A model generated the notes under the pieces. That model saw only the letters and a program-made list of their open reading frames with translations. It was not told the origin of the DNA and ran no database searches. Both the position numbers and the translations under genes were made by a program. From assembly GCA_938044705.1 (NCBI GenBank), contig CALIOL010000264.1:1-51548 (forward strand): a stretch of DNA of 51,548 bases, read 5' to 3'. Below, piece after piece: positions 3,524 through 38,854 of the stretch (the first letter of the stretch is position 1; every line of letters starts with the position of its first letter). The stretch comes from an uncultured Ilumatobacter sp. (GTDB taxonomy: Bacteria; Actinomycetota; Acidimicrobiia; Acidimicrobiales; Ilumatobacteraceae).

Positions 3524-3899
3524 CTTCCTTGCGAACGACCTCCCCGGCCGCGCTCCCCGCCTCCCTTGCGCTCACCCGCTCACCCACTCACCTACGCACC
3601 TACTCAGAATGTGGAGCGATCGTTGCGGCACGCGTTCACATCTCTCCACATTGTCGGAAAGGTGGCGGGGTGGACGCTGCCGGGGAGGTGACACGGGACG
3701 CGGGGCCTGGAGCAAGGGGGCAGGGAGGCGGGAGCAGGGAGAGGGGCAGGTGACCGGGGCGGGGCCCAGACAGGGAGACGCCGGAAGCAGTGAGGGTCGG
3801 GGCCGGGCGAGCAGGCCGAGCGGGTGGGCGGACCTTGCCAACGCGCGAGAGACGGTCGCCCGAGGGGCCGATTGCCGGGCCGCGAGCCTGGGCGCCGAG
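3524..3899. other. Gene-free region with a G-rich tract
   Basis: I find no supportable gene here. From about 3660 to 3795 the plus strand is very G-rich, with many GGGG and GGG runs a few bases apart, so it could form G-quadruplexes. Similar tracts flank the 37.3-38.9 kb cassette. The divergent promoters of hemB and the plus-strand gene at 3912 lie at its two ends. Confidence 0.6.
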
Positions 3900-37302: not shown

Positions 37303-37417
37303 CCGCCCCAACCTCTGCGCTCCGCCCCGACTTCTGCCTCGCCCAACCCCAACCCCAACCCCGGCCCGCTGCCCGCTGCCCGCTGCCCAACCCAACCCCG
37401 CCCCGCTGCCCACCTGG
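37303..37417. repeat. C-rich low-complexity tract (G-rich on minus strand)
   Basis: No gene lies here. The plus strand is C-rich with short tandem repeats: CCCAACC units (37342-37362, on the minus strand four G-runs separated by TT) and CCCGCTG repeated three times. The minus strand has clear G-quadruplex potential. A G-rich tract in the opposite orientation follows the second palindrome at 38775. Confidence 0.7.
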
Positions 37418-37536
37418 TTTGAGGGAGACATACCGACCTGCGAGGGACGAATGTCTCCCGCAAAGCAGAGAACGCCAGCCCGGCGTGGTTGTGGGGAACA
37501 CAAATCGACGCAGCAGGTCGGAATGTCTCCCTCAAA
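37418..37536. repeat. 119-bp nested palindromic element, copy 1
   Basis: The element consists of two 47-bp inverted-repeat units (37418-37464 and 37490-37536) separated by 25 bp. Each unit has 14-bp arms of the type TTTGAGGGAGACAT / ATGTCTCCCTCAAA around 19 bp. The outer 24 bp at the two ends of the whole element are also complementary (23 of 24), including CCGACCTGC with GCAGGTCGG. The inner arm at 37490 is worn. The 25-bp middle holds a small hairpin (ACGCC-n5-GGCGT). It lies between the convergent ecm and AbiEi-like genes. Confidence 0.85.
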
Positions 37537-37619
37537 CGGAACGGGAACGGACCGCACGGACAGGCGCGGGTCGACGGAGCCGAGCGTGTCGAGCGAGCCC
37601 CGTCGTCAGCGAAGGAGTC

Positions 37620-37650
37620 GTCAGCTCGCGCGTGCGGTGCGCGAGCTGAC
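37620..37650 (-). terminator. Terminator hairpin of the AbiEi-like gene
   Basis: GTCAGCTCGCGC (37620-37631) and GCGCGAGCTGAC (37639-37650) form a perfect 12-bp stem with a 7-nt loop that includes the stop codon and last codons of the gene. There is no U-tract. Confidence 0.55.
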
Positions 37651-38550
37651 CGCAGCTTCGACCTGTCTCATCACCGACTCCGGCTGGTTGACGATCGCCG
37701 CATAGGTGAACTGATACGGACGCAAGCCGTGGTTGATCAGCGCATTCATCCGCTCCGTATCGATCCGCAGTTGCCGTGCGGTGCGATGCCAGCGATAGCC
37801 GAGCACTTCGACCACGACATCCGTTCCGGGGAAATGGAAGTCGACACGGACGAGATGCCCGCTCCGCTCTGCCATCACTTGCTGTGTCTTGGGGATCGGA
37901 AGCCCGTGGCGCCGTGCGAGCCGAAGAAACTCGCGCTCGAGCCAACTGTGCGCGCCGCCACTGATCTCGATGCCTTCGATCACGTCGATCAGGTTCGGGA
38001 TCCCGTGCATTCCCTGGGACCGCAGCGCGACGATTCGTGTGTGAAGTGCCGCCTCGGAGACAAGCCCGTCGCGGAGAGCGGACTCGAGCGCGATCGACAG
38101 GTGGTCGGGTGACTCATGGCGAGCGAGGTCGATGATCGTTCGCGCAGCCCGGGTCGTCGGCACCCCATCGACCGTGGTCCGATCGATCAGTGGCAACGCG
38201 TGCGCCGTGTGGATGCGGTGCGGTGTTCGCCGCACGCGACGTTCGCGACCGATCGTCAAGTCGAACGGCGCACTGAGGGCGTATCCGTCGAAGCCGAGAA
38301 GCGCAGCGGCGGTGAAGCGACTCGCGACCACATCGCCTCCGACGTCGAGCACGAGTGACGCAAGATGTTGGCGAGCACCGTCGGCTCCGGGAAGCCGGAA
38401 CGCGTTCGGACCGGTCTGGATCAGGAAGCCGCTCTGGACTCGGCTTCGAAGCTGTTTGTCGCTGACACCGCAGCCGTTTGCCTGCGCTCTCGTGATCGAC
38501 CCCAGCTGACCGTTCGCTACCGCGACGAGGCGGTGATTCGCTCTGGTCAT
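37621..38550 (-). CDS. AbiEi-like winged-helix protein with DUF559 (Vsr-like) domain
   Basis: The 309-residue protein has an N-terminal winged-helix part (HRLVAVANGQLGSITRAQAN, GVSDKQLRSRVQSGFL) as in AbiEi antitoxins, a middle linker domain (VDGVPTTRAARTIIDLARHE) and a C-terminal DUF559 domain related to very-short-patch-repair endonucleases. Possible active-site residues are Glu in HSWLEREF, Asp in LVRVDFHFPG and Glu in DVVVEVLGYRWH. No AbiEii-like toxin gene lies next to it, so it is an orphan. The ATG at 38550 is the start of the family-like part. Identical-architecture palindromes flank it, suggesting arrival as a cassette. Confidence 0.8.
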   Translation of the reverse strand: MTRANHRLVAVANGQLGSITRAQANGCGVSDKQLRSRVQSGFLIQTGPNAFRLPGADGARQHLASLVLDVGGDVVASRFTAAALLGFDGYALSAPFDLTIGRERRVRRTPHRIHTAHALPLIDRTTVDGVPTTRAARTIIDLARHESPDHLSIALESALRDGLVSEAALHTRIVALRSQGMHGIPNLIDVIEGIEISGGAHSWLEREFLRLARRHGLPIPKTQQVMAERSGHLVRVDFHFPGTDVVVEVLGYRWHRTARQLRIDTERMNALINHGLRPYQFTYAAIVNQPESVMRQVEAAVSSRTARAS

Positions 38551-38655
38551 GCCTCCACCGAAGCACAGGGGTACCTCACAGTCAGCTGGCTGCTCCGCCA
38601 CCATCCGCCGCACCGAACCCGACAGCCGACACCCGCCCCTCCCAGACCAGCGTGT

Positions 38656-38774
38656 TCTGAGGGAGACATTCTGCCCTCCTCGGTCGCGATGACTCCCTCA
38701 GATTCGAGAGGTCGAACGGCCCTTGGGTTTGAGGGAGACATCCGGCCGGGCGAGGGCGGAATGTCTTCCTCAAA
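38656..38774. repeat. 119-bp nested palindromic element, copy 2
   Basis: This has the same architecture as copy 1: 47-bp units (38656-38702 and 38728-38774) separated by 25 bp. Arms are TCTGAGGGAGACAT / ATGACTCCCTCAGA and TTTGAGGGAGACAT / ATGTCTTCCTCAAA. The outer ends pair in about 20 of 24 positions. The stretch next to the arms differs from copy 1 (TGCCCTC with GAGGGCG instead of CCGACCTGC with GCAGGTCGG) but is still self-complementary. The middle again holds a small hairpin (TTCGA-n4-TCGAA). Confidence 0.85.
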
Positions 38775-38854
38775 CCAGGGAAGGGACGCGGGCAGGAGGC
38801 GGGTGCGGGCGGGGTTGGGGCGCGGGCGGGGACGCGCTGGTCAGGTTGCGCTGG
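38775..38854. repeat. G-rich low-complexity tract
   Basis: The plus strand has many GGG and GGGG runs (for example GGGCGGGGTTGGGG). It has G-quadruplex potential and mirrors the C-rich tract at 37303-37417. I see no gene in it. Confidence 0.6.

Follow-up and report, generated by a model that had tools for sequence, protein, structure and literature searches.

REPtrons and TIRtrons are units in which a RAYT or TIRYT gene is flanked by REPs or inverted repeats (PMC3733652). AbiEi, of the AbiE type IV toxin-antitoxin system, binds two 23-bp inverted repeats that lie 3 bp apart, and Rv2827c binds four (PMC7319586). Homing endonucleases have been described whose free-standing genes sit as insertions between conserved genes (PMC6083498). 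The locus reported here shares features with each of these systems. It lies in a window of 51,548 nucleotides, the whole stretch of DNA that was analysed, from the genome of an uncultured Ilumatobacter sp. (G000; 3.88 Mb in 369 contigs, 82% complete), and consists of one gene between two 119-bp double palindromes (dimers).

Both dimers had been reported in a preliminary description, and re-reading of the window confirmed the unit starts (37418/37490 and 38656/38728), the 47-bp unit length and the 25-bp separation. The left dimer comprises unit 1 with 14-bp arms (37418..37464), a 25-bp spacer (37465..37489) and unit 2 (37490..37536), and the right dimer comprises its own 47-bp unit 1 (38656..38702), 25-bp spacer (38703..38727) and 47-bp unit 2 (38728..38774). 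The same 14-bp arms had been attributed to both copies; the common architecture stands, but the left copy has three good arms and not four, the left arm at 37490 being badly degraded and reading TGTGGGGAACACAA. The right arm of this decayed unit is intact and pairs with unit 1 over 25 bp. This outer pairing, CCGACCTGC/GCAGGTCGG, joins arms at 37417-37441 and 37513-37537 with 96% complementarity and is the strongest of three close inverted repeats detected window-wide; an extended outer pairing is present in the right copy too, as had been described. Allowing up to 3 mismatches, the arm TTTGAGGGAGACAT has 8 matches in the window, with 2.0 expected and a maximum of 6 in 100 shuffles. The left flank (37303..37417), which runs from the stop codon of the mutase gene to the first palindrome, is C-rich with a GC skew of about -0.5 to -0.6, and the right flank (38775..38854), which reaches the convergent neighbour gene, is G-rich with a skew of about +0.4. 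Flanks that are C-rich on the left and G-rich on the right over 60-70 bp, regardless of gene direction, were found in G000, G007 and G009 and more weakly in G008, a skew that the model favoured below leaves unexplained.

The sole gene between the palindromes (37621..38550, minus strand) encodes a protein of 309 aa, for which an AlphaFold model with a pLDDT of 91.7 was obtained. In a structure search with this model, residues 3-195 matched the AbiEi antitoxin 6y8q (Z 11.8), and residues 202-306 (match region from about 180) matched the I-Bth0305I homing endonuclease 3r3p (Z 11.4), with the endonuclease-like protein 3hrl (Z 11.3) and Vsr 1cw0 (Z 10.0) as further matches of the C-terminal domain. 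The protein is predicted to be a fusion of an AbiEi-antitoxin-like DNA-binding part (residues 1-200) with a nuclease domain of the Vsr/I-Bth0305I type (residues 201-306). Among 28 homologues, no exception was seen at D237 and E248, and few were seen at E205, H255 and D264; on the strength of this conservation, the five are candidate catalytic residues of an EDxHD-type domain. Some homologues match the Pfam models PF04480 (DUF559) or PF18741 (MTES_1575), nuclease-like families for which the open-access papers searched describe no link to palindromes.

Like the AbiE system, the locus has an AbiEi fold in its N-terminal part and inverted-repeat sites of the same dimensions, a 47-bp unit corresponding in size to the two 23-bp repeats of AbiEi and a dimer of four half-sites to the four of Rv2827c. 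Unlike AbiE, it has no adjoining AbiEii nucleotidyltransferase toxin gene, its protein carries a fused nuclease domain, and its sites flank the gene on either side and are spread over the genome. The EDxHD/Vsr-type homing endonucleases resemble the predicted product in the fold of the C-terminal domain, where conserved acidic and histidine residues are candidates for catalysis, and the locus in having a free-standing gene inserted between two conserved genes, whereas the DNA-binding part is different, palindromic brackets and many gene-less copies are present, and cutting and homing are putative here. A defence or addiction role, with incoming DNA or damaged chromosomes as the targets of the nuclease and the palindromes serving to bind, titrate or restrain it, would fit the match of the PADLOC AbiEi models (E 2e-28) and the fusion of a nuclease to a DNA-binding domain. 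Such a role is quite improbable, given that no AbiEii partner adjoins the gene, that the neighbours are a methylmalonyl-CoA mutase and a protein without a Pfam match, and that genomes lacking a close homologue of the gene still carry solo palindromes. No plasmid-borne homologues were found at 1e-10, and proteins of the AbiEi-DUF559 kind occur in 22 of 60 sampled genomes of the phylum.

That the palindromes flank an AbiEi/DUF559-like gene proved to be meaningful when other genomes and control genes were compared. Covariance-model matches were obtained on both sides of the gene in seven genomes (G000, G004, G005, G007, G029, G035 and G130). In G007, a complete genome of the same genus (4,830,181 bp), two dimers with that genome's own arms bracket a 53%-identical gene. 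A model-free flank test was also employed, which takes the 220-bp flanks to the left and right of a gene and scores their best match to each other, the 99th percentile of swapped flanks being 16. Shared flank palindromes or repeats were detected for 14 of 15 genes of the subfamily (relatives of the window protein with an identity of at least 44%), 15 of 32 distant homologues and 16 of 26 homologues sampled phylum-wide, each compared with 3 of 310 control genes (Fisher P 8e-21, 7e-15 and 5e-18, respectively), and 9 of 17 further genes scored above the threshold. The shared piece is itself an inverted repeat in 13 of the 14 subfamily cases (typically 47-52 bp), 11 of the 15 distant and 7 of the 16 phylum-wide ones; about half of the distant homologues have no shared flanking palindrome. 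Each gene has its own palindrome, the sequence differing from gene to gene. Divergence of arms and of protein is weakly linked (Mantel r 0.30, P 0.015 with 18 nt; 0.12, not significant, with 14 nt), so strict co-divergence was rejected. One of the three matching control genes is a phosphoglycerate kinase gene (G006 L185:1234-2391), the flanks of which share a strong repeat (score 29.5).

Genome-wide in G000, the arm TTTGAGGGAGACAT with up to 2 mismatches gave 30 matches, compared with 1 for a reversed control, and the total came to seven dimers and one solo unit, every one intergenic. Gene-less copies are dispersed over 6 other loci in G000 and 12 in G007. Searching with the covariance model of the dimer returned two 119-bp dimers in G007 with a spacing of exactly 47-25-47 and the arms TTTGTGTGACCGAW; altogether this genome has 14 loci carrying 1 to 4 units each. 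Single 46-bp units occur in I. nonamiensis YM16-303 (G008) and 60-61-bp dimers in G004 and G006, and a wider covariance model detected related palindromes in 16 of 148 relatives. The suggestion of a repeat family with a fixed architecture is borne out. A scan for the exact arm across the genome collection returned I. nonamiensis only; other Ilumatobacteraceae, including I. nonamiensis and G007, carry the same kind of palindrome with different arm sequences. Palindromes and a close homologue of the gene are both absent from three genomes (G001-G003), and three others (G006, G008 and G009) have palindromes and no close homologue. Two further arrangements were seen in G007. At L125:9955-10075 lie three tandem palindromic units with the arms GTTTTGCCCC/GGGGCAAAAC, which probably represent one more family of this class. 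At L127:6352-13904, three paralogous genes stand in tandem, each encoding a protein of about 1,200-1,300 aa and each followed closely at its 3' end by one dimer, an arrangement that looks like joint duplication of gene and element.

The window also contains a solo palindrome of a second family (3608..3652; arms AATGTGGAG/CTCCACATT), with a C-rich left and a G-rich right flank, which was turned up by a scan for the C-to-G skew switch observed at the other elements. The palindromes on either side of another AbiEi-Vsr gene of G000 (contig C222, L304) match it, and two gene-palindrome pairs therefore coexist in one genome. An independent pair was found in G163, a complete genome of another family, where the arm of the gene-flanking palindrome has 20 genome-wide matches at about a dozen loci, compared with 0 for the control; dispersal of gene-less copies therefore recurs.

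The preliminary description had taken the change of sequence with pairing kept as a sign of selection for a folded RNA or single-stranded DNA. On this reading, the palindromes would be transcript ends, terminators or mRNA stabilisers, and the strong predicted folds of the double palindromes (-43 to -94 kcal/mol) and the placement behind stop codons agree with it. Covariation tests gave a divided answer. Across species, changes in one arm are matched in the other so that pairing is preserved (covariation score 0.279, compared with 0.143 after shuffling; 0 of 500), but most of this signal comes down to a single difference between two types of arm. Within species, a copy's own two arms show no pairing advantage over arms exchanged between copies. 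The 25-bp middles had each been said to hold a hairpin; their two halves pair no better within than between copies (P=0.16). Rfam returned no significant match, the only hit being sub-threshold and elsewhere, and the outer ends (TTT...AAA) have the wrong orientation for a T-run terminator. The inner zone of the palindrome is asymmetric. A two-fold symmetric protein-binding site accounts for the symmetry at least as well as selection for a fold, and the lack of compensation within species together with the asymmetric inner zone makes it the better fit. Selection for folding was thus not borne out, and with the tie to one protein family left unaccounted for, the hairpin reading is very improbable.

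If the palindromes are protein sites, they could be the operators of an autoregulating AbiEi-like repressor that also acts as a regulator or chromosome organiser at other sites, with nothing moving. This regulator, with operators on both sides of its gene and a set of chromosomal sites, is the main rival and is unlikely. In its favour, both AbiEi and Rv2827c are autoregulated by way of 23-bp inverted repeats, which equal the present sites in dimensions (PMC7319586). Moreover, the start-to-start distances of units (G007 loci L119-L128 and the G000 copies) are mostly 61/62 or 72 bp, a difference of about one helical turn and a hint of a protein complex sitting on one face of the helix. Against this reading, the palindromes flank the gene on either side instead of being confined to its promoter, and the conserved nuclease domain would be left without an explanation. 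The distribution of the elements also speaks against it: they lie mostly directly 3' of stop codons or between convergent genes, and the dispersed copies occupy different loci in each species. No neighbour gene common to all palindromes was found across species, only distant or local paralogues.

Insertion at the window locus is indicated by an empty site. The distance from the mutase gene to the convergent neighbour gene is about 45-75 bp in G008 and G009 and 1.55 kb in the window, where palindrome, gene and palindrome lie between them; the C-rich left flank is missing from the empty site as well. This is one site, seen in relatives of different species, and the insertion boundary is therefore not exact. 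Target-site duplications were not found in four flank sets, where own flanks matched no better than swapped flanks, a difference from IS elements and MITEs of the DDE type. Insertion into the loop of a terminator hairpin was rejected, the flanks not pairing specifically, and a fixed strand polarity of units was rejected because orientations are mixed.

The closest likeness is to REPtrons and TIRtrons, with which the locus shares a gene bracketed by short palindromes and gene-less copies, often dimers, dispersed in intergenic DNA; it differs in having an AbiEi-Vsr fusion in place of a Y1/HUH transposase, units of about 47 bp and arms peculiar to each lineage. The palindromes might then be ordinary REP/BIME elements that owe their spread to a Y1 transposase (RAYT), an explanation for which a similar size range, the dimers, the intergenic placement and the Y1 genes in 8 of 10 genomes of the genus could be cited. 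No Y1/HUH transposase (PF01797) lies between the palindromes, however, and G000 and G009 have palindromes and no PF01797 match, while G001-G003 have Y1 genes and no palindromes. Six Y1 loci have no such palindrome around them, and a GTAG (or CGTC) tag is absent from the unit sequences and their 40-bp flanks. Y1/RAYT was rejected as the driver, and the REP/BIME explanation is extremely improbable. At one locus of G002 (L143), a Y1 transposase gene lies between palindromes of a different kind (274-323 and 1239-1294; TTCACGCCAGGCGTGAA) and is possibly a true REPtron.

The best reading, with a probability of roughly 0.6, is a selfish unit resembling a REPtron, with palindromes that would be read by an AbiEi-type domain and copied through the action of a Vsr-type nuclease. 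It draws on the recurrent bracketing, the matching left and right palindromes, the dispersed copies, the one empty site and the predicted fold. The two palindromes would be the ends of a unit of about 1.4 kb, in the order palindrome, AbiEi-Vsr gene, palindrome. The AbiEi-like N-terminal part would recognise half-sites of about 23 bp, much as AbiEi binds its own pair of 23-bp inverted repeats, and the C-terminal Vsr/EDxHD-type domain would cut or nick DNA. Repair would then copy the palindromes, with or without the gene, to new intergenic places, mostly just 3' of genes. Gene-less palindromes would be non-autonomous copies, and every gene lineage would evolve its own palindrome sequence. Of these steps, recognition of the palindrome by the protein is probable, mobility of the unit is rather likely, and homing-like copying driven by the nuclease stands at about even odds.

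No known family fits, the RAYT enzyme and its tag as well as the AbiE toxin being absent, and homing is a proposal. No paper in the open-access literature was found to tie palindromes of this kind to DUF559 or AbiEi-Vsr proteins; as subscription journals and most preprints lay outside the search, the novelty of the element is a judgement. On balance, slightly favoured over its negation, is the view that these loci represent an undescribed class of mobile palindromic element found phylum-wide. In this class, an AbiEi-type domain with a Vsr/homing-type nuclease would mobilise its own lineage-specific palindromes, leaving gene-less copies scattered in intergenic DNA, with several independent pairs coexisting per genome.

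Should the regulator reading be right, the locus would be a new variant of AbiEi-type regulation. AbiEi-DUF559 proteins are common in the phylum and are named as if they were antitoxins, with no role described in the open-access papers searched. A rule that many of their genes are bracketed by palindromes of their own would give these proteins a testable function and would account for repeat families without a Y1 transposase. Because the palindrome differs with each gene lineage, many natural protein-site pairs become available for studying the evolution of DNA-binding specificity. If the selfish-unit reading is true, a lifestyle like that of REP/RAYT has evolved twice, the second time around an unrelated enzyme.
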